Shown here: piece after piece, positions 8,111-21,181 of the stretch
Position numbering within the stretch: the stretch's first letter is position 1
How the letters are laid out: each line of letters starts with the position of its first letter
Origin: Bacteroidaceae bacterium
Lineage (GTDB): Bacteria; Bacteroidota; Bacteroidia; Bacteroidales; Bacteroidaceae
Assembly: GCA_017470525.1 (NCBI GenBank)
Contig: JAFUYM010000065.1
Span: 1 to 41,278, forward strand
Direction of reading: 5' to 3'
DNA: 41,278 nt
Notes under the pieces: model-generated
Told to the model about the DNA's origin: nothing
The model's database searches: none
The model's input: only the letters and a program-made list of their open reading frames with translations
Position numbers and translations under genes: made by a program

Positions 8111-8190
8111 CAACTGTAGCGCTGTAGCAACTGCAACGTTGTAAACAAGGGCGACTCTTTTGCAACTGTAGCGCTGTAGCAACTGCAACG
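8111..8190. repeat. Two identical 28-base CTGTAGC-family repeats
   Basis: The same 28 bases occur at 8111-8138 and 8163-8190, starting CAACTGTAGCGCTGTAGC and ending ACTGCAACG. Internally each is three degenerate 9-mers of the type nnCTGTAGC. Related copies lie at 10454-10480, 16387-16414 (inverted) and 16522-16548. These copies sit in the 235-base gap between mutS2 and the next gene; I see no gene in that gap. Confidence 0.85.
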
Positions 8191-8204
8191 CATCCTGTGT
8201 GGGG

Positions 8205-8621
8205 TCATTTCCGTTTCTTCTTGTTCACATTGATGGGCGTGCTCATCGGGAAAGCGATGGAGTAGGCGGCATCGAGGGCTTTCAGGTCAATTTGCTTGTA
8301 GAAATTGATGCCGAGCCGGATGGCGACAATGGCGCGGAGCAGTTCGCGGTGCTTGCGCGGATAGAGCCGGGGCGGTGGCAACTCGTCCCATCCGCACACC
8401 TCGTCCTCCTCGTCCAGCATGAGCGATGCCAGATGGCACACCTCCCAGATGAAGTCGTCGTTGGCTTCGCCGCCAAACCACACTTGCAGCACCCTCCGGA
8501 TGCAGAACCGCCTGTACTGCCCCTTGAAGAGCCGCCTCGTGCGCTCCAGCCGAAGCCAGAGCCGCACAAAGCATTCCTTGTTGTTTTCAATGTTCATCAT
8601 AGCGATAGCAATTTTTTTCAT
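8205..8621 (-). CDS. Hypothetical protein downstream of the BT4734-type gene
   Basis: A 138-residue basic, arginine-rich protein I do not recognise. It has RLWLRLERTRRLFKGQYRRF near residue 20, an acidic middle, and a lysine-rich end. It starts 34 bases after the BT4734-type gene ends and reads the same way, so it is probably co-transcribed and may share that gene's role in a mobile element. An alternative start at 8597 (MNIENNKE) would drop 8 residues. No signal peptide or membrane segment is evident. The frame is the longest here on the minus strand but other frames are also open, so the call is moderate. Confidence 0.6.
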   Translation of the reverse strand: MKKIAIAMMNIENNKECFVRLWLRLERTRRLFKGQYRRFCIRRVLQVWFGGEANDDFIWEVCHLASLMLDEEDEVCGWDELPPPRLYPRKHRELLRAIVAIRLGINFYKQIDLKALDAAYSIAFPMSTPINVNKKKRK

Positions 8622-8655
8622 TTCTCATTTTCACTTTTCATTTTTCACTTCTTTT

Positions 8656-11034
8656 TTATACCTTTCCTCCATATTTCTGTTTGTACTCCGCTGTCTTGCA
8701 GTAGCCGCCAGTCACTTCGTCGTAGGCAATGTAGCCACGGCTCGTCCATGTGCGCAGGGTGGAGCCGCCATCTCCTGTGCGTCCCTGGCTACGGCGCATC
8801 TGTCGGTACTGTTCGCGTGTGAACTCGTCGGGCAGGAGTTCCAACAGGTTTTGAGGACCCGACTGACGCTGAATCTCCACTTCCTCGTGCAGTTCCTTTT
8901 CCAACTGCTGACCGAAATAGAGCATCTTGCACCAGAGGTTGTACTGCTCCGTCCACCTGACGAAGTCGCTGATGGTCTTGTCCCATTTGTAGCCATGTGC
9001 CACATAGAGCACCATGCCTTTGAGCCATGCAATGACGTTGGCACGGTAGGAGAACACCCTGTAAGCCTCCGATTCGTAAAGCCCTGCCGTGTCGCGGTTC
9101 TCCTGCCTCATCTCCAGCGAGAGCCGCTTGGCTGCCATGCACTCGATAAGTCCGCTGGCACTGTCGAGGCGGTCGATGTAGGGCTTCAGTTCGGCGGCAA
9201 AGGTGTGGTCGTAGATGCCCAGCACGGGTGCAGTGTCATCGTCGCCCTCCGAGCGGATGATGGTCGAGATGTCGAGGCGGCTCACCGTGCCGTCGTTCAC
9301 CATCTTCGTGAAGAACTTGCGGGCATTGGGTGGAGTGGTGGAGGCGTTGAAGTTCCACCGCAGGGGGGCAATGCCGCTCACCGAGTCGGCACCCACACGT
9401 TCCTGACCTGCCATCGAGTTGTCGAACGCCTTGCGGATGAGCAACCCCACCTCGTCCACCGTGCCTCTCGAAGTCACCTTCTTCAGGGCATCAATCTCAT
9501 CCACAATGGTGTAGATGTATCGTTCGCCGTTGTTGTTGACATCCACGATGCGCTGATTGAACACGGCGTCGGTCAGGTTGTCGATGAGCATCTGGATGCA
9601 GATGTCCGTGGGTCGGGGGTCTTTCTTCTGCTTCGCCGTCGGGTTCTTCTGCTTCCATTCCGCCTCACGCTGACGGTTGGGAATGTCTCGCTGGCGGATG
9701 TCCTCCATGATGAACTCGATGGGCTTCTTGATGCTGCCCTTACCGATGCTCTGCCGCCCGATGAGCACGTTCATGAAGGTGGCTTCGTGCTCCACATTGT
9801 CCCAGTAGCGGAACTTCACACCGTGCAGATGGGCACCCAACGCAGGAAACACGGCATTGGCAACAGCAGGTTTGTAGAACGGAGGCACATTCTTCGTCAG
9901 CAACTTGATGAGTGGCGGCAACCGCTTGGGCATGGGTGGGGGAGAGGTGAGCGTGCCGCCACATGCCTTCACGCCAGCCGTCGATTTCAGTGCAGCCAAC
10001 ACCTGCTTCAGGCGGTAGGGCATCCCCTTGCGTGGCTCCTTCAGGGCATTCTCGATGGTCTTGCGCCACTCCACGGCATCGCCTTTCCAGTAGTTGGGAA
10101 TGACTGCCTGCATCCTTTCCAGCGAATAGTCGCAGATGCTCCGCAGGGTCATCGCCAGTTCGTAGGTCTTCACGTTGCGGTCGCCCTCCACGGGTTCCTT
10201 GCCGTCGTTGAACAGTTCCCAATACTTCTGGATGATGTCGGCGAAGGGAATGCCGTTGTATTGAAGACCCTCTCCCCCTGCCCCTCCCCCGTGGAAGGGG
10301 AGGGGAGAGCCATCCGGATTGTTTGTCGTCTGGCTTTCTGATGAAGAATCATTCGGCTCATGGGTCGTTTGCCTTCCTGTTGGGAAGCAAGCCGCATGGT
10401 TCTCCCCCTTCACGGGGGAGATGCCCGTAGGGCAGAGAGGGTCTTCTCTTTCCGAACTGTAGCACTGCAACGGTGTAGCGTCAAACACCTCATCGTCCAG
10501 ATACAGCAACTCGTCCTCGTCAGCCGTCGTGGTGAAGAACACCCGTGTGATGTCCTTTGCACCCTCATCATACTTCACGCCCAGCAGGTCGCTTGCCCAT
10601 CGCAGGTTCTCCTCTTGCGAGAGGTTTTCATGGCGGCGGAACACCAGATGGTAGCCCTTCGATGCCGAACGCTCCAGCATGAGCAACCCCAACGCCTCCC
10701 GTTTCGCCATCACCAACGTTGGCACACTCGCCATCTTCTCCTCCAGCCAAGCCTTCCGTTCCTCGTCCGAAAGCTCCTCGGGAGCCACGAAGTCGATGTC
10801 CATGCCCACCGAACGCGATGCCGTCTTGCACCCCTTCAGGGCACCGTCCTCACCGGGGATGCACGAGTAGTTCATCTGCACGAGCCGATGCTTCTGCCGA
10901 GTGTCGCCCTCTCTCACCAGTCGCAGAATTGCCTTCTGCTTCTCACTTCCGCGCAGACGCAGATACTCGTCTCGCGTGAGGACGGGGCGCATCCTCTTCG
11001 TCCCATCCTGATAATATATTACATGTACGCTCAT
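8656..11034 (-). CDS. BT4734/BF3469-family protein: primase-like N-domain (VirE_N) and helicase-like domain (DUF3987-like)
   Basis: A 792-residue protein of a family common in Bacteroidales genomes. The N-terminal part resembles an archaeo-eukaryotic-type primase: GMDIDF near residues 77-82 (acid pair), SKGYHLVFR at 125-133, and DITRVFF at 161-167. The C-terminal part is P-loop-like: GRQSIGKGS near 426-434 and IYTIVDEID near 507-515. It may handle nucleic acid for a mobile element; function is inferred. The linker between domains, about residues 188-257, is encoded by a CTGTAGC-type repeat and a GC-rich palindromic element in frame. The start at 11034 is preferred over a start 9 codons earlier because the upstream residues are unlike a family start. 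Confidence 0.8.
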   Translation of the reverse strand: MSVHVIYYQDGTKRMRPVLTRDEYLRLRGSEKQKAILRLVREGDTRQKHRLVQMNYSCIPGEDGALKGCKTASRSVGMDIDFVAPEELSDEERKAWLEEKMASVPTLVMAKREALGLLMLERSASKGYHLVFRRHENLSQEENLRWASDLLGVKYDEGAKDITRVFFTTTADEDELLYLDDEVFDATPLQCYSSEREDPLCPTGISPVKGENHAACFPTGRQTTHEPNDSSSESQTTNNPDGSPLPFHGGGAGGEGLQYNGIPFADIIQKYWELFNDGKEPVEGDRNVKTYELAMTLRSICDYSLERMQAVIPNYWKGDAVEWRKTIENALKEPRKGMPYRLKQVLAALKSTAGVKACGGTLTSPPPMPKRLPPLIKLLTKNVPPFYKPAVANAVFPALGAHLHGVKFRYWDNVEHEATFMNVLIGRQSIGKGSIKKPIEFIMEDIRQRDIPNRQREAEWKQKNPTAKQKKDPRPTDICIQMLIDNLTDAVFNQRIVDVNNNGERYIYTIVDEIDALKKVTSRGTVDEVGLLIRKAFDNSMAGQERVGADSVSGIAPLRWNFNASTTPPNARKFFTKMVNDGTVSRLDISTIIRSEGDDDTAPVLGIYDHTFAAELKPYIDRLDSASGLIECMAAKRLSLEMRQENRDTAGLYESEAYRVFSYRANVIAWLKGMVLYVAHGYKWDKTISDFVRWTEQYNLWCKMLYFGQQLEKELHEEVEIQRQSGPQNLLELLPDEFTREQYRQMRRSQGRTGDGGSTLRTWTSRGYIAYDEVTGGYCKTAEYKQKYGGKV
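10265..10445. repeat. GC-rich palindromic element, copy B, in frame inside the BT4734-type gene
   Basis: Outer arms are AGACCCTCTCCCC (from 10265) and GGGCAGAGAGGGTCTTC (to about 10445). Each side carries a CCCCGTGGAAGGGGAG or CCCCCTTCACGGGGGAG hairpin. About 70 bases of other sequence separate the two halves, including GAATCATTCGGCTCATG, so this copy is longer than copy A. It stays open in the gene's frame, encoding a Ser/Thr/Pro/Gly-rich linker, and is read in the opposite orientation to the mutS2 and uvrA copies. Confidence 0.85.
10454..10480. repeat. CTGTAGC-family repeat, in frame inside the BT4734-type gene
   Basis: GAACTGTAGCACTGCAACGG followed by TGTAGCG; 27 bases matching the copies at 8111, 8163, 16387 and 16522. 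It directly abuts copy B of the GC-rich palindromic element and encodes part of the interdomain linker (DATPLQCYSS). Confidence 0.8.
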
Positions 11035-11109
11035 AAATATATCTTTATTAATGTTTCGCAATTTTTTTCTTTACCGCGAAGCGTAAAACACATCCAGAAC
11101 TTGGATCAA

Positions 11110-11496
11110 CTACCACCGGGTTTCGGTGCGACGTGTCTTAATCCACGCCTGTTGCTCTTCCGATTCTTCCCGGTGCAGCGCCTCGATGAGTGCCTTGCCC
11201 AGTTTCTTAGGGAATCGCAGCAGGAAAATCACGCTGTCCTGTGTCTCCTTCACCTCGCCGTGCGCCGTGGTGAAGAGGCGTGTGTATCGGCTTCCGCTGT
11301 CCTTCGCATACGGATGGAAATGGCTCGTGCCCGACTTGTCCGTCACCATGCGACCCTTCTGGCTCGCCTGTTCGCCGCCCGCCACGATGTGCTTTCCCAA
11401 CTCGAACGCACAAGGAAAAATGTTGATGCTGCCATTCTGGCAAAAAACTGTCTGTGTCTCCATTTGGAGGTTGTTGATGAAAACTTGATTTTTCAT
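11110..11496 (-). CDS. Hypothetical protein upstream of the BT4734-type gene
   Basis: A 128-residue protein I cannot place in a family. It contains INIFPCAFELGKHIVAGGEQ, then SHFHPYAKDSGSRYTRLF and a mixed strand/helix C-terminus, and reads like a compact soluble domain. It lies 75 bases upstream of the BT4734-type gene on the same strand and may be its operon leader gene. A weak promoter-like sequence lies about 200 bases upstream (11696-11725). The composition (aromatic, charged, ordered) supports coding, but the function is unknown. Confidence 0.55.
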   Translation of the reverse strand: MKNQVFINNLQMETQTVFCQNGSINIFPCAFELGKHIVAGGEQASQKGRMVTDKSGTSHFHPYAKDSGSRYTRLFTTAHGEVKETQDSVIFLLRFPKKLGKALIEALHREESEEQQAWIKTRRTETRW

Positions 11497-11695
11497 AACT
11501 TGATACTTCTAATAGATTTTAAAGAGTTAAAAGCATCGTGCGCACGTTGCCGTAGTCGATGAAGATGTGTTTGCAACCACATTCCTCATGTCCATGAGAG
11601 ATTGTTGGAACATTTCAAACAGATGGGCACAAAAAAAACTGCACCCCCGAAAGTTCTGAAGCCATTTTCGTGTGCTTCTTTTCTTTTCGACGGTG

Positions 11696-11725
11696 CAAAG
11701 TTCGGGAGAATGCCGCAAAGCCAAA
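11696..11725 (-). promoter_or_regulatory. Possible promoter for the BT4734-type gene cluster
   Basis: On the minus strand TTTG (11725-11722), 18 bases, then GAACTTTG (11703-11696), one mismatch from TAnnTTTG. It would leave a leader of about 190 bases before the ATG at 11496. The stretch 11497-11793 contains no other gene I can support. Confidence 0.4.
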
Positions 11726-11793
11726 ATTGCAAGAAAAAGAAAGTTCTGTCAATGTTTTGTTGGCATTTTGTCAGTTGAAAATCAGCAAGAAAA

Positions 11794-11822
11794 AAGACGC
11801 TGACAAAACTTGCCAACGTCTT
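11794..11822 (-). terminator. Intrinsic terminator of the restriction-modification operon
   Basis: On the minus strand AAGACGTTGGCA pairs with TGTCAGCGTCTT across all 12 positions (two G-U wobbles) around the loop AGTTT, followed by TTTTTTCTT. It lies 27 bases after the stop codon of the last gene (11849), so it ends the four-gene transcript starting at the methyltransferase. Confidence 0.85.
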
Positions 11823-11848
11823 CCATCTTTCCGATTCTCTATTTCTTG

Positions 11849-12811
11849 TCAGAGTGCCATCCCTGATTGGACGGAAATGATGCTCTCAATTCTCTCGCAT
11901 TGCTTTTTCGTGAACACACAGTTTGAACCTCCGAAGTCTTTGCATTTCGCAATGTAGTCGCGGTGTGGCTTGCCCTCTATGGCATTGCTGATTTTAGTTA
12001 CATTATCTTCTATCAGCGTGTCCTTCTTGCTGTCCCCATCGATGTGCATGTCCTTCATCAATCCCAACACGTTGCACACCATTTTCAGGTTCTTTCCCCA
12101 TGCATTGTTCCGAGGCTCCACGTTGTTCAGCAGTTCCATCATGCCGCTCTCTGCGCAGATGGCTCGCCAAATAGATTCGTAGGCATCCCATTCGATTCTG
12201 CACAATGCCCTCATTCCCTTCGTCTGTTCCAGCACATCCTTCACCATTGCCTCAATCTCTCCACGTGCCACCTCGTCCATACGTTCCAAAGAGTTCTCTA
12301 TCTGCATGTAATCGGTGACGGGCAGAACAATCTTGTTCCCCTCATTGTCTTGCCTGACACGTGTGAAAGCCTTGATTAACTTATCTGGATATTCCCTGTA
12401 TGCGGGATTGGTGATGACCTTTGCAAGTGCCCTGCACATGGCTTTGTGAGGATGGTTTTCCACATCCTCGCCAGCGTCGCACAATTGAGAAAAGAGCACC
12501 GTCATCACACAAAGAGCCGTAGCCGTTGCCTCTGCCTCGCAGCGTTCCGTCATCTTTTCTCCATCCTGAAAAGTGCTGTACCTGTCTTTCAGTTCCTTCA
12601 TGAAAAAGTGAATCTCCGTGTCGCGGTGCTCAGGCAACTCCGACAGCCGCACACGCAACAACTCTGCCTCGTTCCAGATTTCCACAGGATTCAAATCGCC
12701 CTTCAACTCTAATCGGGTGAGCGTCTCCACCCATGTACGAAACAAGTCGTCACCGAGATAACGATGACGAAAACCATCCAACTTCTCCCTTGTGAATCTG
12801 ACAAAAGGCAT
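11849..12811 (-). CDS. Unknown helical protein, last gene of the restriction-modification operon
   Basis: A 320-residue protein I do not recognise. It is highly charged and apparently almost all helical, with LFRTWVETLTRLELKGD near residue 23, a run of acidic and basic helices, and a C-terminus with three cysteines. No signal peptide, membrane segment or known nucleotide-binding motif is visible. Its ATG lies 2 bases after the stop of the preceding unknown gene, and a strong terminator follows. The pair therefore forms the tail of the EcoRII-type operon. An anti-phage or immunity-related role is inferred from context only. Confidence 0.75.
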   Translation of the reverse strand: MPFVRFTREKLDGFRHRYLGDDLFRTWVETLTRLELKGDLNPVEIWNEAELLRVRLSELPEHRDTEIHFFMKELKDRYSTFQDGEKMTERCEAEATATALCVMTVLFSQLCDAGEDVENHPHKAMCRALAKVITNPAYREYPDKLIKAFTRVRQDNEGNKIVLPVTDYMQIENSLERMDEVARGEIEAMVKDVLEQTKGMRALCRIEWDAYESIWRAICAESGMMELLNNVEPRNNAWGKNLKMVCNVLGLMKDMHIDGDSKKDTLIEDNVTKISNAIEGKPHRDYIAKCKDFGGSNCVFTKKQCERIESIISVQSGMAL

Positions 12812-12813
12812 GG

Positions 12814-13752
12814 CTATTCAAACACGTCTGGCAGGTTTTTCATGAACACCTTCACCTTGTCATAAGGTGTCGTGCCCATATCTTTCAGCAAAATTTCATC
12901 TCCCACCAACTTCTCAAACACCTTGTCGTCCAGTTTCTCCACCACATACTGCCCCTTGCCCACGAAGACACGTTTTCCTCCTCCCTTCGGATACATGATG
13001 ATGTATGTGCCGCTGCTATTGCTCGTTCCGTGAGCAGACGCACCCTCTACCAACGCCTCCTTGCGAGCCTTGTTCTTTTCGAGGTCAAGCACACCACCGT
13101 CATCCGCAGTGAACGAGAACTCCAAGTCGCTGCTCCAATCTTTTCGCACGTCCGTCAGGAAACCATCCATCACCTTGGTCAGACGCTCAAGGTTCAGGTG
13201 CGGAAAGTGGAACGTTATCTTTCTGAATCCCTTCGGGTGCTCCTCAACAATCCTCCAGAACTCACGCTTCGGATAAGGAGCCTCCAGCAGCACCTTCAGG
13301 CGGTAGCGTTTCAGCAACACGTTCAATGTCGCCTCCAGAATGCCCGCCACCGTTTGTGTCCTCTGAAACACCTTCGTCTTCTTCTCAATTGCAATCCGCT
13401 GAATGCCCTTGCGGTTGTCGATAATCACGAGGCAGTTCCGGTAATCCTTCACAATCTCCTCCTTCAACTGCTCGTTCGTGATGCTCAGGTTCCGCACGTT
13501 CGCCACTCTCATCACATACACCCCATCCTGTGGCTCCACAATCTGCTTGTGCCAATACTCCCATCCCCGCTTGTTCACAAACTGCACCGTCTGCCGATAG
13601 TCAAATTCCAACACCTCATCCAGAAGCTCCTGCCGCCTCGCAAAAGACTCCTCCACATCCACCGCCCTCCAGTCGGGGAATTGAATTTGATACTGCTCGT
13701 CAGGCTCAATGATGCGAGCAAACTGATAGTTGTAGATAACAAAGTTAGCCAT
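12814..13752 (-). CDS. Unknown alpha/beta protein following the EcoRII-type endonuclease
   Basis: A protein of about 312 residues with no family I can name. It opens with NFVIYNYQFARIIEPDEQ, has a strand-rich centre (LVIIDNRKGIQRIAIEK), then ILEATLNVLLKRYRLKVLLE, a FWRIVEEHPKG stretch and a lysine-rich, strand-like C-terminus (YIIMYPKGGGKRVFVGKGQY). A GTG at 13761 could serve as start, overlapping the endonuclease stop codon by one base; the ATG at 13752 is used here. Either start implies translational coupling to the endonuclease. It is not needed for a standard EcoRII-type system, so it is an accessory of unknown role. Confidence 0.75.
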   Translation of the reverse strand: MANFVIYNYQFARIIEPDEQYQIQFPDWRAVDVEESFARRQELLDEVLEFDYRQTVQFVNKRGWEYWHKQIVEPQDGVYVMRVANVRNLSITNEQLKEEIVKDYRNCLVIIDNRKGIQRIAIEKKTKVFQRTQTVAGILEATLNVLLKRYRLKVLLEAPYPKREFWRIVEEHPKGFRKITFHFPHLNLERLTKVMDGFLTDVRKDWSSDLEFSFTADDGGVLDLEKNKARKEALVEGASAHGTSNSSGTYIIMYPKGGGKRVFVGKGQYVVEKLDDKVFEKLVGDEILLKDMGTTPYDKVKVFMKNLPDVFE

Positions 13753-13760
13753 AGATGCCA

Positions 13761-14957
13761 CTATTTTAATATGAAATGCTTAGGTATTCTTTCCTGCTTT
13801 TCTTGTACCATTTGTACAAACTCCTGCAAATTGCGGATGGATGACTGGTATTCTTTGGGGAATGTGCTTACATATTTCTCAGGAACAACCAGATGAACCT
13901 TTTCATCAGTCATTTCCTTCAATTGATTCCGCGATATACCTTGTTGAAGGGTGAACAAATATTTCTCATCCACTCTATTGGCTTCGTTGATAACTTGTCT
14001 CCATCTATCTTTGCATGTGGTTTTTGCTCCAAGCACGGTGAGGTCTTCTGCGGGAAATTCAAAATTATGATAACACTCGCCATTGGGGAACAGGAAGTCA
14101 GGCTTTTTGTTGTTCTCTGTAATGACTTGCTCCTCGAAAATCAGTTGTTCGGCTTTAAAGATGGCAGAAAGATGGTGCTCTAAAGATTTGCCAGCACGTG
14201 ATTTACGGCGATTCAGTATTTTGTTGGAGAAGTCTATTAGTGATTGGCAATCCGCAAAGGGTTGGGTGTATATTGGTTTATAAATCTTCTCTTCTAAATG
14301 TCGGAACAATTCAAGTTCTGTATCATACCAATTGAGCAAGTATTTATCAGGATTTTTACAGATGTCCTTTTCCGTAACCCCGTGAATACGATTGAAGATT
14401 TCTTGTGCCCGCAAGCCCATTTCCTGAGTTTGTGGAAAATCTTGCATTTGAGCAATAATCATATTGATTGCCATTTGCATCGCAATATCATCTGTTGGAG
14501 CATTTGCGACATCAATTAATTGGTTTGTCTGTTCTGGCGACAGGTTGAAATAAGAAAGAAATGTCTCAATCTCATCATCTGTTTCCAATACAAAAGCCTC
14601 ATAATAATCTTCTGTCTGTTCAGCGATAACAAGCAAACTCCCCACATATTTATCCATCAAAAACTCAAAATCACGTCCGAAACGAGTTATACGGTATTCG
14701 TTACGTGTTTTCTGCCCATAGTAAATGAAGCGGCTGTCTGTCTCGAAATCATTTTGCCACTTGATTTTCACCCATTTCTCTCTGTTTGTTCCTCGTTTAC
14801 ACACCTCCCCGAACAAAAGAGGTGCCGCATTCTTGGGGACATAAAAGCCTGCTTGGTGTGACCCTGTGCTTCCAGTGTCATTTCCTGTAATGAAGCGGCA
14901 GAAAGATGTCTTTGCCGATTTGACGCTTTGAATCGATATATCAAGAATTTCACTCAT
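13761..14957 (-). CDS. Type II restriction endonuclease, EcoRII family
   Basis: The 398-residue protein matches EcoRII (about 404 residues). EcoRII cuts before CCWGG and is a type IIE enzyme needing two sites. The N-terminal effector-binding domain shows GNDTGSTGSHQAGFYVPK near residues 25-42. The catalytic domain has E260 in SRAGKSLEHH, PD at 286-287, K312 in LGAKTTCKDRW and R318; the spacing D-25-K-6-R equals that of EcoRII D299, K324 and R330. The CCWGG target is inferred from the family. Its start overlaps the methyltransferase end by 8 bases, so modification would be made first. All catalytic residues are present, so the enzyme is probably active. Confidence 0.93.
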   Translation of the reverse strand: MSEILDISIQSVKSAKTSFCRFITGNDTGSTGSHQAGFYVPKNAAPLLFGEVCKRGTNREKWVKIKWQNDFETDSRFIYYGQKTRNEYRITRFGRDFEFLMDKYVGSLLVIAEQTEDYYEAFVLETDDEIETFLSYFNLSPEQTNQLIDVANAPTDDIAMQMAINMIIAQMQDFPQTQEMGLRAQEIFNRIHGVTEKDICKNPDKYLLNWYDTELELFRHLEEKIYKPIYTQPFADCQSLIDFSNKILNRRKSRAGKSLEHHLSAIFKAEQLIFEEQVITENNKKPDFLFPNGECYHNFEFPAEDLTVLGAKTTCKDRWRQVINEANRVDEKYLFTLQQGISRNQLKEMTDEKVHLVVPEKYVSTFPKEYQSSIRNLQEFVQMVQEKQERIPKHFILK

Positions 14958-16266
14958 GGCTATTCATTTGTTGGTTTAGCATTGTTTCTACAATTTGTTC
15001 GGATACTGCTGTAATGAGAGGAACAACAACGGAATTACCGCATTGAATATAAGTTTGAGTGTCTGAAACCGCCCTTATTGTGTAGTTGTCAGGATAGCCC
15101 ATCAATCTTGCACATTCCCTCGGAGTCAGTTTCCGAGGATTTGTAGCATTGCCTTGCGGAATAAGAATTTCAGAGCCATCCTTATAATATCTGGCACTTA
15201 ACGTGCGAGATATTCCATTCAAATCAACAAGCCCGAAACCGAATCCATTGCCTTTCTCTTGCTGGCGTATAGCATAATCTTGAAGATAATTCCACAGGTT
15301 ATCTGTTAGTGTATATTTCTCCTCAGGATGTGGCTCGAGAATGTCTGCTATCCGATGAACGGGTTCCAATTCTGGAGGAAATTCAAAATTTTCCTCTCCA
15401 TGATACCGCTCTCTATCAAACCCGACAATCAAAATCCTCTCCCTATGTTGCGGTACATATGATTTTCCGTCCATCACACGGTAATGAACGGAATAGTTCA
15501 GTTCTTCCAATGTTTCAAGGATGACCCTGAAAGTTCTTCCCTTGTCATGAGAAACCAGATTCTTTACATTTTCCAAGAAGAAAGCCTTGGGACGGTGCCT
15601 TTGAATAATATCTGCAACATCAAAAAAGAGCGTTCCACGCGTTCTGTCCTGAAAGCCCGTCTTGCGGCCAAGGCTCCCATTCTTTGAAACTCCGGCTATA
15701 GAGAAAGGTTGGCAAGGAAAGCCAGCACATAGAATATCAAAATTCTGAGGAATACGCTGTTTCGTCACCTCCTTTGTGATGTCTCCAAAGGGCATTTCCC
15801 CAAAATTCGCAAAATAGGTCTTTTGGGCATACTTGTTCCATTCTGAAGAAAACACACACTTTCCTCCTTGTGCTTGCATTGCTAAACGGAATCCTCCCAT
15901 ACCTGCAAACAAGTCAATGAACGTGAAACGATATTGCTCTGGCCGAGGAAAAGGGACATTAAAAAAATCCGCAAAGAAAACTCCTGCATAAGGGTCTTCT
16001 GCCACTCGCCACACTTGTTCATCATCGTATTCATCTGCACGATTTCCAGTCTTACGTTCCAGATATTCACGCACACAATAAATAATCTCTTCTCGTCTCT
16101 TTCTCACTTCTTTTTCGTCCCCCTGCAAATCAGGTGAATGCAGGTACTGGCTCAGCACCGCCATCTGCGTCTCGTATGACAATTCGCCATACCACTTCAA
16201 GCCATGTTGCTCATCCACCTCCTCGGGGAAATCCGTCAATTTTATTGCTTTTGTTTTCTTCGCCAT
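14950..16266 (-). CDS. DNA (cytosine-5)-methyltransferase, EcoRII/Dcm type
   Basis: The 438-residue enzyme methylates cytosine C5, presumably in CCWGG, protecting against the adjacent EcoRII-type nuclease. Motif I FAGMGGF is at 120-126, motif IV GFPCQPFS at 182-189 with catalytic Cys185, motif VI ENVKNL at 232-237, motif VIII QHRERILIVG near 273, and motif X GNSVVVPLI near 415. An N-terminal helical extension of about 110 residues is as in Dcm and M.EcoRII. The frame is open 52 codons upstream, but the ATG at 16266 (MAKKTKAIKL) lies just after a clear promoter and is preferred. First gene of a four-gene operon. Confidence 0.94.
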   Translation of the reverse strand: MAKKTKAIKLTDFPEEVDEQHGLKWYGELSYETQMAVLSQYLHSPDLQGDEKEVRKRREEIIYCVREYLERKTGNRADEYDDEQVWRVAEDPYAGVFFADFFNVPFPRPEQYRFTFIDLFAGMGGFRLAMQAQGGKCVFSSEWNKYAQKTYFANFGEMPFGDITKEVTKQRIPQNFDILCAGFPCQPFSIAGVSKNGSLGRKTGFQDRTRGTLFFDVADIIQRHRPKAFFLENVKNLVSHDKGRTFRVILETLEELNYSVHYRVMDGKSYVPQHRERILIVGFDRERYHGEENFEFPPELEPVHRIADILEPHPEEKYTLTDNLWNYLQDYAIRQQEKGNGFGFGLVDLNGISRTLSARYYKDGSEILIPQGNATNPRKLTPRECARLMGYPDNYTIRAVSDTQTYIQCGNSVVVPLITAVSEQIVETMLNQQMNSHE

Positions 16267-16288
16267 GTTAATTTTACTTTTCTTTTTG

Positions 16289-16319
16289 CAAAGATACGAC
16301 ATTCTTTTCACTTTCCCAA
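16289..16319 (-). promoter_or_regulatory. Promoter of the restriction-modification operon
   Basis: On the minus strand TTG (16319-16317), 20 bases, then TATCTTTG (16296-16289), a full match to the Bacteroidota TTG-N20-TAnnTTTG pattern. The predicted start point lies about 15 bases upstream of the methyltransferase ATG at 16266. No control-protein (C-box) repeats are visible. Confidence 0.75.
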
Positions 16320-16386
16320 CAAATCCTCTGCAATTTTTATGCGTGCCTGTTGTTTGCGAAATGGATGTGAGATGAAGGGGGTGGTG

Positions 16387-16548
16387 CGTTGCAGTTGTTG
16401 CAGTGCTACAGTTCCAAAACAAGGGATGGAAAAGTCAAAGGGAAATTTTATATTTATATATAGTATATATATACTATATATAAATATAAGAGTATTTTGG
16501 GGGTCATGGTGACTGTTGCGAGAACTGTAGCGCTGTAGCGGTGTAGCG
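16387..16548. mobile_element. MITE-like unit: inverted CTGTAGC-family ends around an AT palindrome
   Basis: The left end, 16387-16414, is the reverse complement of the CTGTAGC-family repeat; the right end, 16522-16548, is a forward copy. They form imperfect terminal inverted repeats of about 27 bases. Between them, 16448-16489 is a perfect 42-base palindrome made of TA steps with one G-C pair. There is no coding frame inside. No target-site duplication was identified. The unit lies upstream of the restriction-modification operon. Confidence 0.55.
16448..16489. repeat. 42-base perfect palindrome
   Basis: Every position pairs with its partner about the centre between 16468 and 16469. The arms are almost pure A/T (left arm begins TTATATTTATATATAGTATA), with a single G-C pair at 16463/16474. 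It could extrude as a cruciform or form a very long weak hairpin. No T-run follows it on either strand, so it is not a standard terminator. Confidence 0.9.
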
Positions 16549-16691
16549 AGGAGGTGGAGGAAACGGCTTCTCATCATGATGAATGAAAAGGAGCGATGAA
16601 AGGGGGAGGGGAGGATGGAGAATGTGCAAAAAAAATGCAGGAGGGGTGAAAATTTTGGGGGAATCGTTCGTGAACCGCAATCTGGAGGTTG

Positions 16692-16699
16692 TAACTTTG
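16692..16699 (+). promoter_or_regulatory. Possible -7 element for the DUF5675-like gene
   Basis: TAACTTTG on the plus strand matches TAnnTTTG. No good TTG box lies 19-20 bases upstream, so the call is weak. If used, the 23-base tandem repeats at 16740-16828 would lie in the 5' leader of the gene at 16927. Confidence 0.4.
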
Positions 16700-16739
16700 C
16701 AGCGTGAAAAAAACGAAGGCTCTGCGGTGCGCCCTGCGA

Positions 16740-16828
16740 GGTAATTACGGTGAGGGGCGAAAGGTAATTACGGTGACGGGCGAAAGGTAATTGCGGTGAC
16801 GGGCGAAGGGTAATTGCGGTGACGGGCG
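16740..16828. repeat. Four tandem copies of a 23-base unit
   Basis: The unit GGTAATTACGGTGACGGGCG plus AAA is repeated at 16740, 16763, 16786 and 16809; the fourth is 20 bases long. Copies differ at a few positions (TTAC or TTGC, GAGG or GACG). There are no spacers, so it is not a CRISPR array. It lies 100-190 bases upstream of the DUF5675-like gene. Confidence 0.9.
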
Positions 16829-16926
16829 CGGGGCGAGCGTGGGGTGGAGAGGGAGAGTTTCTGATACACGAATGTTGAACGGTAAAAAAACGGATGTGTG
16901 TGTAAACGCTAAATTTTGAAGGACGG

Positions 16927-17472
16927 ATGGAAATCAGGTTGAAAAGGTATTATGGGGACGCTGAGGTCACGAAGTCGGTGATGGAGGTGTGGATGGATGG
17001 GGAGACCCAGCCGAGGATGGTGTGTGAGGCTCGCGAGGTGGGGTTCGCGGATTATGAGGCGTCGTTCCCGGGGGCTTCGAGGGTGTGTCTGCCTCGGGGC
17101 AGGTGGAGGATGAAGGTGGGGCAGTCGCCTTACGGGGCGATGGGCTTGCGGGTGGCGAGGTGCCCGGGGCATCGGCAAGTGTATGTGGGGCACCGGTGGG
17201 CGAGGCAGATGTTTGAGGGCGAGGTGCTGGTGGGGGAAGTGGAGACCCTCTCACCTGAAGACCCTCTCTGTCCTGCGGACATCTCCCCCATGAGGGGGAG
17301 ACCATGCGGCGGGGGGGCTGATGGGGAGCGGCTGAGGGAGATGAAGGAGAGGAGGATTGTGAATGGGGACGTGGTGTTTGAGAAGTTGAATGGGCTGGTG
17401 TATGAGGCTTGGGGGCGGGGCGAGGAGTTCTGGATGGTGGTGGAGAACGGAGAGATGAGCGGCTTCGCCTAA
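16927..17472 (+). CDS. DUF5675-like protein carrying an in-frame palindromic repeat
   Basis: A 181-residue protein with the outline of DUF5675 (small phage-type domain linked to cell-wall hydrolase genes): a strand-rich start (MEIRLKRYYG), then SRVCLPRGRWRMKVGQSPYG, VPG-like ARCPGHRQVYVG and EGEVLVGE. The ATG is preceded by AAGGA, a good ribosome site for this phylum. Residues about 107-128 come from copy C of the GC-rich palindromic element. A conserved histidine of the family (IH.GN) seems replaced by VYVGH, so activity is doubtful. The strand is very purine-rich, unlike its neighbours. It precedes an HU-HIG gene, as commonly seen near BT4734-type genes. Confidence 0.6.
   Translation: MEIRLKRYYGDAEVTKSVMEVWMDGETQPRMVCEAREVGFADYEASFPGASRVCLPRGRWRMKVGQSPYGAMGLRVARCPGHRQVYVGHRWARQMFEGEVLVGEVETLSPEDPLCPADISPMRGRPCGGGADGERLREMKERRIVNGDVVFEKLNGLVYEAWGRGEEFWMVVENGEMSGFA
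17243..17310. repeat. GC-rich palindromic element, copy C (half unit), in frame
   Basis: GACCCTCTC at 17243 is followed by GAAGACCCTCTCTGTCCTGC and a short hairpin CTCCCCCATGAGGGGGAG (17283-17300). It matches only one side of copies A and D, so it is a truncated or half element. It encodes EDPLCPADISPMRG inside the DUF5675-like protein, in the same orientation as copy B. Confidence 0.8.
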
Positions 17473-17514
17473 ATGAGAGATGAGAAAGGGGGAATGGGAT
17501 TTTCGCCTGCGGCG

Positions 17515-17641
17515 GACGAAAGAAAAACAGAAAAAAACAAGTAAAAACAAATAAAAACAGGTCTTTCTTGTTTCATCTCTGTTTAACGAAGAACATGTTT
17601 TTTTCTGTTTTTACTTGTTTTTATTTGTTTTTTCTTCGTCA
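17515..17641. repeat. Long A/T-rich inverted repeat between the DUF5675-like and HU genes
   Basis: AAAAACAAGTAAAAACA (17533-17549) is exactly complementary to 17606-17622. The arms extend imperfectly to GACGAA-type ends at about 17515 and 17641, giving arms near 45 bases around a loop of about 55. It may act as a bidirectional terminator or be a remnant element. No coding frame is evident in 17473-17780. Confidence 0.7.
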
Positions 17642-17780
17642 CGCGAAGCGTAAAAAAGCAATTGAAATATCAGATGGCCAAATGATATATTAGTGTAAAA
17701 AAAACGAATGTTTAACCGCTGGAGGCTCTGGGGAAATGCTGGGGGCTGAAGGCAAAAGAAAAGAAAGGAGAAATGAGATT

Positions 17781-18212
17781 ATGGGTTTGCAGTATCGTAA
17801 AGGTAAGGTGAAACTGAACTACCGCGAGGAGAAGCCTGAGGTGTACAAGGCGATTCAGTTGACGTATCCGCAGGTGACGTATGAGCAACTGGTGGAGGAG
17901 ATTGCGCAGTCGAGGGGCGTGAACACGAACATGACCCGCTCGGTGGTGGACGCGCTGCTGAACCGTCTGGTTCACTACATGGAGATTGGCCACGGGGTGT
18001 CGCTGGGGTCGTTCGGCTCGTTCAAGCCTGTCTTCACGTCGAAGACGGTGCAGACCTACGGCGAGATTGAGGAATCGCTGGCGGCTGACGCAAAGGGTTT
18101 CCGCAAGAAGGTGCGTTTCTATCCTGGCGGCAAGTTTGCGCAGATGCTGAAGGGCATGAGCGTGACGGGGGCTGAGGTGCTGGACGTGCCTGACCCGACC
18201 CCGAGACCTTAA
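17781..18212 (+). CDS. HU-family DNA-binding protein (HU-HIG type)
   Basis: The 143-residue protein begins MGLQYRKGKVKLNYREEKPE and then shows an HU/IHF fold: TYEQLVEEIAQSRGVNTNMT, an alpha-helical pair, GHGVSLGSFGSFKPVF, and a C-terminal KVRFYPGGKFAQML segment. This is the Bacteroidota HU-HIG subfamily, often found next to BT4734-type and phage amidase genes. It probably bends or coats DNA. The start at 17781 is chosen because AAGGAG lies upstream and the longer frame lacks family residues. A paralogue is encoded at 35635-36057. Confidence 0.85.
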   Translation: MGLQYRKGKVKLNYREEKPEVYKAIQLTYPQVTYEQLVEEIAQSRGVNTNMTRSVVDALLNRLVHYMEIGHGVSLGSFGSFKPVFTSKTVQTYGEIEESLAADAKGFRKKVRFYPGGKFAQMLKGMSVTGAEVLDVPDPTPRP

Positions 18213-18499: not shown

Positions 18500-21181
18500 T
18501 CAGGGCAGTTCTTGCCGCAGGAAGGTGGAGGTGATGCCTTTGCCGCTCCGGGCGACGGATTCGGGGGTGCCGGTCACGACGACGGTGCCCCCTTCTTGTC
18601 CGCCTTCGGGCCCCATGTCGATGATGTGGTCGGCGAGTTTGATGACATCGAGGTTGTGCTCGATGACAATGACGGTGTTCCCCTTGTCGACCAAGCGGTT
18701 GAGCACCACCATCAGGGTGCGGATGTCCTCAAAGTGCAGCCCTGTCGTGGGTTCGTCGAGAATGTAGAGGGTCTTTCCAGTGTCTTTCTTCGCCAGTTCG
18801 GTGGCGAGTTTCACGCGCTGGCTCTCGCCGCCGCTGAGGGTGCTGGAGGGCTGACCAAGTTTGATGTACCCCAATCCCACGTCTTGCAGCACCTTGATTT
18901 TGTGCAGTATCTTGGGTTGGTTCTCAAAGAACTCCACGGCTTGGTTGATGGTCATGCCCAGCACATCGGAAATGCTCTTGCCCTTGAAGCGCACTTCCAG
19001 CGTCTCCCGGTTGTATCGCTTTCCGCGACAAACCTCGCAAGGCACGAGCACATCGGGCAGGAAGTTCATCTGGATGGTCTTGTAGCCGTTGCCGCCGCAG
19101 GTTTCACAGCGTCCGCCCGCAACATTGAAGGAGAATCTGCCTGGTTTATAGGCGCGCATCTTCGACTCGGGCATTTCCACAAAAAGTTTGCGGATGTCGG
19201 TGAACACGTCGGTGTAGGTGGCTGGGTTGCTGCGGGGTGTGCGTCCCAGAGGCGACTGGTCAACACTGACCACCTTGTCAATGTTCTCCACTCCTTCTAT
19301 TGCTTCATACTCCAGCGGGTCGGTTTGAGAACGGTAGAAGTGCTGACTGAGGAACGGCTGCAGGGTCTCGTTGATGAGGGTGGACTTGCCGCTTCCGCTC
19401 ACTCCCGTCACACACACCAGCATGCCCAACGGAATCTCTACCGTCACGTCTTTCAGGTTGTTGCCTTTTGCCCCAATCACCTTGATGCACTTGCCGTTGC
19501 CCTTTCTGCGCGAGGCGGGCACTTCTATCTTCTCCTTCCCGTTCAGGAAACGGGAGGTGAGCGTGTCGGTTTTCAGCATGTCCTCGGGAGTGCCCTGATA
19601 CACCACTTCGCCTCCCTTCCTGCCGGCAAGGGGACCCATGTCGACAATGTAATCGGCATTGAGCATCATATCCTTGTCGTGCTCCACCACAATCACCGTG
19701 TTCCCTTCGTCGCGCAACTCTTTCAGCGAATTGATGAGCCGCACATTGTCGCGCTGATGGAGTCCGATGCTGGGTTCGTCCAGGATGTAAAGCACATTGA
19801 CCAACTTCGTGCCTATCTGCGTGGCAAGGCGGATGCGCTGGCTTTCTCCTCCGCTCAAACTGACGGAACTGCGGGAAAGACTCAAGTAATGCAACCCCAC
19901 ATCGAGCAGGAACTTCAGGCGTGTGCTGATTTCCTTGATAATCTCATGAGCGATGGCTTGCTGCTTCTTCTCCATCTTCGCCTCTACGCTGGTCACCCAT
20001 TCGTATAGGGCAGACAGTTCCATGTCCGACACCTCGCTGATGTTTTTGCCGTCAATGCGGAAATGCAATGCCTCTCTGTTCAACCTTTTTCCCTGGCATT
20101 CAGGGCAGACGACGAGTTTGTCCACCGACTCTTCCCACTTCTGTGCCCATTCCTTCTGTTCCTCTATGCTGAGCCCATGCACATATCCAGCCATTTCCTG
20201 ATAATCCACACTCTCCAAATCCACGGCAGGAACCACACCCAATCCTTTGCAATGCGGACATGCTCCTTGGGGGGAGTTGAAAGAGAAGTTGTTGGGGGCA
20301 GGGTCGCGGTAGCACAATCCTGTCGTGGGGCACATCAACCGCTTGGAGTAATGCTTGAGAAGACCCTCTCTGTCCTGACGGACATCTCCCCCGTAATGGG
20401 GAGAACCATCCGGCTTGTTCCCTGATGACAAAGACCCCGCATGGTCTCCCTCCCCATTATGGGGGAGGGTCGGGGAGAGGGTCTGTACCATCACCTGTCC
20501 GTCGCCCATCTTCATGGCAACCTCCAGGCTCTTCTTCAGCCGCTCCTCATCCTTGTCGCTGATGGCGAGTTTGTCAATCACCACCTCGATGTCATGGTTC
20601 TTGTAGCGGTCAACCTTCATGCCTTCCGTCACATCCACAATCTCTCCATCCACACGGGCATACAGATAGCCCTTCTTGCGGATGCTTTCAAACAGTTCGC
20701 GGTAATGTCCCTTGCGGCTCTGCACCAGGGGTGCCAACAGGAAAATGCGCTTGCCGTTGTATTGCTCCAGCAAGAGCCGCATCACATCCTCTTCGGTGTA
20801 TTTCACCATCTTCTCGCCTGTCTCGTAACTGAAAGCCTCGCCTGCACGGGCATAGAGCAGTCGCAGATAGTCATAGACCTCTGTCACGGTGCCGACCGTC
20901 GAACGCGGGTTCTTGTTGGTCGTTTTCTGCTCGATGCTGATGACAGGGGAAAGCCCGCTGATTTTATCCACGTCGGGGCGTTCCATCCCCCCCAAGAAGT
21001 TGCGGATGTAGGCACTGAACGTCTCGATATATCTTCGTTGCCCCTCCGCAAAAATCGTGTCGAACGCCAGCGACGACTTGCCGCTGCCGCTCAATCCTGT
21101 GATGACCGTCAAACTGTTGCGAGGTATCTCCACATCCACATTCTTCAGGTTGTGTACCCTCGCTCCTTCAATTTTTATCAT
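18500..21181 (-). CDS. uvrA: Excinuclease ABC subunit UvrA
   Basis: UvrA is the damage-sensing ABC ATPase that loads UvrB in nucleotide excision repair. The 893-residue protein has Walker A GLSGSGKS at 29-36 and GVSGSGKST near 595, two LSGGESQR signature motifs, Walker [11 protein letters not shown] and [10 protein letters not shown], and a CETC...CEVC zinc module near 690-715. The N-terminal [16 protein letters not shown] segment is the Bacteroidota form. Residues about 233-274 are encoded by copy D of the GC-rich palindromic element, just before the CPTTG zinc region, so the linker is longer than normal. The start overlaps the stop of the upstream lipoprotein gene (ATGA). Confidence 0.96.
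20361..20484. repeat. GC-rich palindromic element, copy D, in frame inside uvrA
   Basis: 124 bases from AGACCCTCTCTGTCC to GGGGAGAGGGTCT, with CCCCCGTAATGGGGAG and CTCCCCATTATGGGGGAG arms. The interior, GAACCATCCGGCTTGTTCCC and following, differs from copy A. Read in uvrA it gives [10 protein letters not shown] and [10 protein letters not shown], almost the same peptide as copy A gives in mutS2, because orientation and frame are the same. Confidence 0.9.

Follow-up and report, generated by a model that had tools for sequence, protein, structure and literature searches.

An EcoRII-type restriction-modification (R-M) operon of a Bacteroidaceae bacterium (assembly GCA_017470525.1, contig JAFUYM010000065.1; the 41,278 nucleotides analyzed are referred to as the window) is followed closely by two genes, here called A and B, that known EcoRII-type systems do not need.

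Organization of the four-gene unit

The unit lies on the minus strand of the window in the order C5 methyltransferase, EcoRII endonuclease, gene A, gene B. The first gene (16266-14950, ATG start) encodes an EcoRII-type C5-cytosine methyltransferase of 438 amino acids that matched PF00145 with an E-value of 2.3e-91 and the PADLOC model MTase_II with 1.9e-136. The endonuclease (14957-13761, 398 amino acids) contains both the C-terminal (PF09019, 5.8e-62) and the N-terminal EcoRII domain (PF09217, 6.2e-30) and, with the adjoining C5 methyltransferase, constitutes an EcoRII-type type II system. Gene A (13752-12814) has an ATG start and codes for 312 amino acids; an alternative GTG start at 13761 would extend the protein to 315. 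Gene B, an open reading frame at 12811-11849, codes for 320 amino acids. The methyltransferase and endonuclease genes overlap by 8 bases, the endonuclease gene and A are separated by 8 bases (or overlap by 1 base with the GTG start), and the gap between A and B is 2 bases. From this layout the four genes are probably co-transcribed.

The unit ends at an intrinsic terminator on the same strand (11824-11792) that consists of a 15-pair stem and a T tail. Its predicted RNA fold of −28.5 kcal/mol (z −5.53) was equaled by none of 200 shuffled sequences; stem and T-tail patterns as such are not unusual, with 4 observed against a mean of 6.1 in shuffles. Upstream of the methyltransferase gene a possible Bacteroides-type promoter (16289-16323, minus strand) was read by eye, with TTTG at 16323-16320 and TATCTTTG at 16296-16289. 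The spacer of 23 bases is longer than the 19-21 bases of Bacteroides promoters, and a sigma-70 scan gave no match at 16289-16319. The surrounding DNA, 16473-16211, is retained with 79% identity in a related locus, L009. A promoter in this region is plausible. The original prediction, made from the bare sequence, had described the same four genes with the same overlaps and gaps, and the coordinates agree. Its assignment of the first two genes to an EcoRII-type pair was confirmed by the Pfam matches and its single strong terminator by the stem and fold statistics. Of the promoter that it placed at 16289-16319, only the two elements named above are visible.

Sequence families of A and B

The prediction had not recognized the two downstream products, of about 312 and 320 residues, and they stayed unassigned in our searches. 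A and B matched no Pfam or NCBIfam family at an E-value of 1, and a Pfam scan of 31 aligned A and 27 aligned B sequences gave only matches of single members, the best with E-values of 0.0085 and 0.0087. With PADLOC, gene B had no match and gene A one weak match, to the PDC-M34A model of the candidate system PDC-M34 (E 0.039). This candidate was rejected, as none of six scanned A relatives matched the model at E 1 and G000 had no match at E 0.001; the PDC-M34A model was present in 7 of 148 genomes, G000 not among them. In PHROGs, gene B matched phrog_8007, a family of unknown function, with an E-value of 0.0035. Sequences in the PDB gave no match to A profiles at E 10, and PDB sequence searches with profiles A5, A6 and A7 and with the E. 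coli pair described below returned nothing convincing. Among titles and opening parts of abstracts we recognized no description of the A-B pair; since accessions may escape full-text search, this is weak evidence of novelty.

Members of the A family share a stretch around I-D-N-R...I-A-I-E and an F-W pair. B proteins have a front of about 110 residues in common, followed by a variable remainder. Structure prediction, proposed earlier as a check, did yield AlphaFold models, calculated from four sequences each (window, L009, L011 and L012), but with pLDDT values of 32.0 for A and 41.5 for B they are too poor for use; in its poor model B appears mostly helical. No segment of window B exceeds the hydropathy threshold, which by this measure marks it as a non-membrane protein.

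Distribution of A and linkage with B

Protein and profile searches placed A in 7 of 393 genomes at the level of the order, 3 of 395 at that of the phylum and 20 of 201 at that of the family, counts that include G000 and partly overlap. In three other families only already known members were recovered (1 of 92, 1 of 100 and 1 of 5 genomes). The neighbors of A were read at 33 places, namely the window, L009-L018, L026 and L051-L071, after removal of re-finds and of L050, a duplicate of L011; L009-L012 are loci from public genome contigs. A B or B-like gene adjoins A at 30 of them. Of these B calls, 13 came from an iterated profile and 15 were chosen by position and pooled into a second profile, which then added L017 and L018. 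hhalign connects the two profiles at 90.8% across their first 110 residues. With the reservation that 15 of the 30 were picked by position, the linkage of A and B appears to exceed chance, and A-B is a conserved unit of undescribed families.

The arrangement varies in detail. L053 has A and B on different strands, B precedes A in L057, the A gene is broken in L018, and in L058 the front of the gene called as B is partly out of frame and overlaps A, its tail alone resembling B. At three places A occurs without B: in L013 and L026 it is overlapped by the gene of a small membrane protein, and in L014 a type I restriction gene comes next. In L016 (5616-13819), A-B is surrounded by genes for a helicase-like protein, for a protein with what by eye is a GIY-YIG-like stretch, and for a large ATPase. 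A scan of the first two gave a single weak PADLOC match (9.7e-6), and the genes possibly represent another undescribed defense cluster.

A search with the B profile returned 20 matches in 16 of 125 genomes. Sixteen were at A places, all of them in the query alignment or duplicates of its members. The other four were new (one strong and three weak, E 2e-18 to 1e-7) and none lay at a known A place, which shows that B-like proteins are not bound to A. They are L173, L174 and L175, whose neighbors were read, and one in G859. In L173 and L175 the B-like protein is encoded, without A, between R-M-like genes and genes that by eye are VapE- or primase-like. Viral contigs contained no relatives detectable with window A, window B, two A alignments or L016 A as queries; window A, L013 A and L017 A found none on plasmids, and window A and L026 A none in phages.

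Restriction genes in the neighborhood of A

R-M, HNH or BREX genes occur within about 5 kb of A at 23 of the 33 places (window, L009, L011-L014, L017, L051-L053, L055, L056, L059-L063 and L066-L071). The assignments are based on a PADLOC scan of 40 selected neighbor proteins, except that L067 was assigned through 86.5% identity to a protein of L066. The labels comprise R-M types I, II, IIG and III, and BREX in L068. Among the remaining ten places, L064 has a PifA-like gene downstream (scanned) and L065 a similar gene (by eye); L016 contains the helicase and ATPase genes, which have no convincing assignment, and L057 a truncated HsdR-like open reading frame (by eye). In L010 and L054 a contig end is close to A, and in L015, L018, L026 and L058 nothing was recognized as R-M.

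The gene that often follows A encodes what we take to be a VapE-like protein. As a control we used 20 VapE-like loci chosen away from known A places, of which 12 offered at least 6.5 kb of upstream sequence and 8 were cut short by contig ends. A or B was detected at E 1e-4 in none of the 20, and their absence from all 12 of the longer loci shows, within this selection, that they are not core genes of the VapE-like locus. An R-M-like gene was nevertheless present upstream in 7 of the 12, as compared with 0 of 15 arbitrary stretches of A-bearing genomes (two of them shorter than 11 kb). Controls were scored by blastp hits (E 1e-10) to R-M proteins taken from the A loci, so that the rates are not strictly comparable with the PADLOC counts; with this proviso 23/33 and 7/12 show no clear difference. 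Proximity to R-M genes is thus largely a property of the hotspot, and the idea that it proves coupling is ruled out: proximity alone cannot prove that A-B cooperates with restriction. The special link of A-B to R-M is weaker than its appearance suggests.

Mosaic structure of the locus

Block comparison delimits a variable segment at 11484-16401 that comprises the R-M and A-B genes; its flanks are kept in L103. On one side are a 128-amino acid open reading frame (11110-11496, minus strand), part of a region with 81.7% DNA identity to L103 over 11484-10480, and a large open reading frame (8656-11061, minus strand) whose product we assume to be VapE-like, that is primase/helicase-like, and for which 14 of 28 genomes contain relatives at E 1e-20. 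The other flank carries, on the plus strand, open reading frames for a protein of 181 amino acids (16927-17472; DNA conserved in L011, L053 and L103) and for a presumably HU-like protein of 158 amino acids (17736-18212; DNA conserved in L011 and L053).

DNA homology to the window begins at the start codon of A, at window position 13767 for L009, 13752 for L010 and 13754 for L011. From there it spans A, B, the terminator and, with gaps, the VapE-like flank; upstream of A the gene content is different. The R-M genes by themselves have thus been swapped as far as the A start codon. At the opposite edge, homology stops at window positions 16386-16401 for L011, L053, L056 and L103, and for L009 it reaches 16211, in the first codons of the methyltransferase gene. 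L056 and L053 have a different A-B, and homology resumes at 11706 and 11700, respectively, beyond the terminator of B. In L103 the two flanks are about 340 bases apart, and A-B is missing. These limits identify R-M plus A-B as variable cargo. The R-M genes have third-position GC contents of 0.40 and 0.41, against 0.70 in A, 0.62 in B and 0.76 in the VapE-like gene, which fits separate histories.

At positions 3-256 of L009, DNA resembling the promoter and first codons of the EcoRII-type methyltransferase gene is still present at a place now occupied by an HNH nuclease gene, a remnant that we regard as a trace of R-M exchange. The element formed by the HU-like, 181-amino acid, 128-amino acid and VapE-like genes (window 8158-18212, L102-L120) has several relatives per genome; G917 contains 10 matching stretches, some of them pieces of one gene. 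Its slot holds varied defense genes, including type I and type II R-M and, by eye, a Zorya-like set in L102. With several copies per genome and such varied cargo, the element looks like a general defense hotspot of the family. A repeat of about 33-61 bases was also noticed inside open reading frames, at 20360-20420 (in a UvrA-like frame at 18500-21181) and 17258-17310 of the window and at 4721-4853 of L009 (VapE-like frame). In the UvrA-like and VapE-like frames it is seemingly in frame, like a small interspersed coding repeat.

Phage and prophage relatives of A

Divergent members of the A family connect it to proteobacterial phages. The E. coli record CP099174.1, matched by the A proteins of L026 and L014 only, encodes a 298-amino acid A relative and an overlapping 154-amino acid protein beside an integrase at icd, a region that we take to be an e14-like prophage. 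Near-identical copies are present in 32 of 5426 complete E. coli genomes. Vibrio phage PQ189321.1 has an A relative with its own overlapping partner gene, and A relatives were found in 11 viral contigs. Of five that were examined, L135, L140 and L143 show a partner gene; for L141 and L142 the available sequence stops at A. Profile A1, which contained no phage relatives, found all five that were tested, with E-values of 5e-16 to 4e-11 (search set of five sequences), and hhalign aligned it with the phage relatives at 98.3% and E 1e-14. In a control with profile A5, the best of 315 control open reading frames scored E 0.17.

Six pairs were measured, those of E. coli, Vibrio, L140, L143, L013 and L026. 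Without exception, the second gene shares 4-26 bases with A, and its small product has four or five hydrophobic segments. In L140 the pair lies past a gene whose product is 57% identical to P2 gpA, on the other strand, which is the P2 tin/old slot. In L143 it is located among tail genes between the S and V regions, the P2 Orf30 slot, where H and I were assigned by tblastn and the other neighbors by eye. The cos-proximal locus of P2 is reported as a hotspot of anti-phage systems (PMC9122126). The phage and prophage records examined showed no recognizable R-M genes next to A; L132 has a phage adenine methyltransferase gene about 8 kb from its A relative. Between the membrane partners of E. coli and L026, blastp gave no match at E 10, and those of L013 and L026 matched at E 0.028. 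With no cross-phylum homology of the membrane partners detected, and nothing that relates B to them, the notion of exchangeable partners is drawn from gene position and from A.

Proposed function and alternative explanations

We favor, at a probability of roughly 0.45, the reading that A-B is the Bacteroidales branch of an unnamed two-gene phage-exclusion (abortive infection) module in which A is the sensor and its partner the effector. A defense role of A-B is likely. The presence of A relatives with a small membrane protein in anti-phage slots of phages points the same way: A-B is probably an extra defense module, one that would travel with swappable restriction systems. By analogy with RexA, the conserved component A would most likely sense infection, and by analogy with RexB the partner would most likely be the effector that arrests growth. 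The partner seems to differ by lineage, being a membrane protein of about four segments in phages of E. coli and Vibrio and at two Bacteroidota places, as opposed to a soluble, putatively helical B in Bacteroidales. In B the conserved front may serve as a docking part and the variable tail as a changing effector part. Because A-B stands at the end of the gene row in the window with the exchangeable R-M cassette in front, both are probably made together, and A-B could act on phages that have got past restriction, in possible cooperation with it.

A second defense layer had been suggested by the original prediction. The occurrence of the A family with a membrane partner in the P2 tin/old slot, the Orf30 slot and at the edge of the e14-like prophage supports this indirectly. 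Its activation on failure of restriction, as also proposed there, would be conjectural, and the R-M neighborhood is not specific to A-B. The other role suggested there, immunity for the restriction system, finds no support, as the phage and prophage records examined showed no recognized R-M next to A. The searches made revealed neither a distribution as housekeeping genes nor a known non-defense family, the two outcomes that had been named as refuting. A survey had further been proposed of whether the pair occurs without R-M but next to other defense genes. The PifA-like gene in L064, its counterpart by eye in L065 and some places without recognized R-M agree with this in part. A wider reading, in which A is an undescribed sensor family with interchangeable effectors (a four-segment membrane protein, or B with its swappable tail) and in Bacteroidales sits behind a socket for any R-M system, with generic growth arrest as backup, we consider doubtful.

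It is rather unlikely that A-B serves the maintenance, expression or movement of the HU-/VapE-like element, with the R-M genes as passengers. Such a role would agree with R-M genes in 7 of 12 loci of this kind that lack A-B, with the single homologous block that A-B and the VapE-like flank form in L009, L010 and L011, and with the B-like proteins that in L173 and L175 stand without A between R-M-like and VapE- or primase-like genes. However, A-B belongs to the variable part of the element, being missing from L103 and replaced by a different A-B in L053 and L056; A occurs in only 20 of 201 genomes of the family, and its relatives in proteobacterial phages were seen without such a locus. A role of A and B as restriction accessories, whether as controllers, stabilizers or a restriction-alleviation device, is unlikely, despite the tight spacing behind the endonuclease gene and a same-strand A directly after an R-M gene in the window, L011, L012, L017, L051, L052, L056 and L059 (one extra gene intervenes in L013 and L068). 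It conflicts with the change of the preceding R-M genes between the window, L009 and L011, whose A proteins are 82-88% identical, with the range of systems that the family accompanies by PADLOC label (types I, II, IIG, III and BREX), with R-M genes on the other strand in L060-L063, L066, L067 and L069, and with the phage relatives, which have no recognized R-M genes beside them; the phage adenine methyltransferase gene of L132 is some 8 kb off.

That A-B is a toxin-antitoxin pair which retains the R-M cassette seems improbable. Two overlapping or abutting genes on mobile cargo, of which the partner changes and A stays, would suit such a pair. Yet B-like proteins of 248-421 amino acids and an A of about 300 are bigger than expected of a classical pair, the two genes lie on different strands in L053, the window pair matched no toxin family, and each Pfam family that matched did so with a single member.

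If the phage-exclusion reading is correct, a family that matched no Pfam entry connects exclusion genes carried by phages of E. coli and Vibrio to the restriction operons of Bacteroidales from gut and rumen, and R-M exchange ahead of a fixed start codon would show how layered defense is assembled. The two-gene module could then be tested directly in E. coli, given the near-identical copies in its complete genomes.

Comparison with known systems

The window unit resembles EcoRII-type R-M systems in that its first two genes make up a complete pair. The L140 pair shares with P2 tin/old its slot and its orientation opposite to gpA, but tin/old and the other systems of P2-like hotspots (PMC9122126) are different proteins.

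Kiwa consists of the membrane protein KwaA and of KwaB (PF16162), and like the phage pairs it combines a soluble protein of about the same length with a small membrane partner. Around R-N-R-E-G-I-Q, KwaB has a short stretch similar to the A motif. The gene order is reversed, however, and the window pair lacks a membrane protein, judged from the hydropathy of B. Six KwaB sequences aligned with the A profile at an hhalign probability of 6.8% over 33 columns, with a score of 27.6 against a best score of 24.5 in 40 column shuffles. The sequence similarity amounts to this short motif, too little to name A a KwaB homolog. A Pseudomonas syringae plasmid (L151) was found to carry a KwaB (DUF4868) gene that, with the preceding hypothetical gene, probably represents Kiwa; it adjoins a DUF4928 gene and a cytosine methyltransferase gene.

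The closest parallel in layout is RexAB. In this system, to which RexABpp of P. putida belongs, RexA is described as a DNA-binding trigger and RexB as a membrane effector (PMC12894663). RexA and RexB of phage lambda have 279 and 144 amino acids. When A was compared with lambda RexA, its close relatives and Butters gp30, hhalign probabilities did not exceed 0.55%. As the RexA-like gp30 itself scores only 4.0% against RexA, this test is too weak to exclude homology; the phage pairs share the RexAB layout, with no sequence homology of A to RexA detected in this weak test. The window pair differs from RexAB in that B is, by hydropathy, soluble and not a small four-segment membrane protein, and in its position behind R-M genes. 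The phage A pairs, in contrast, share with RexAB a soluble protein of about 300 amino acids followed by an overlapping small protein with about four membrane segments, encoded in phages at the positions of lysogenic-conversion genes.
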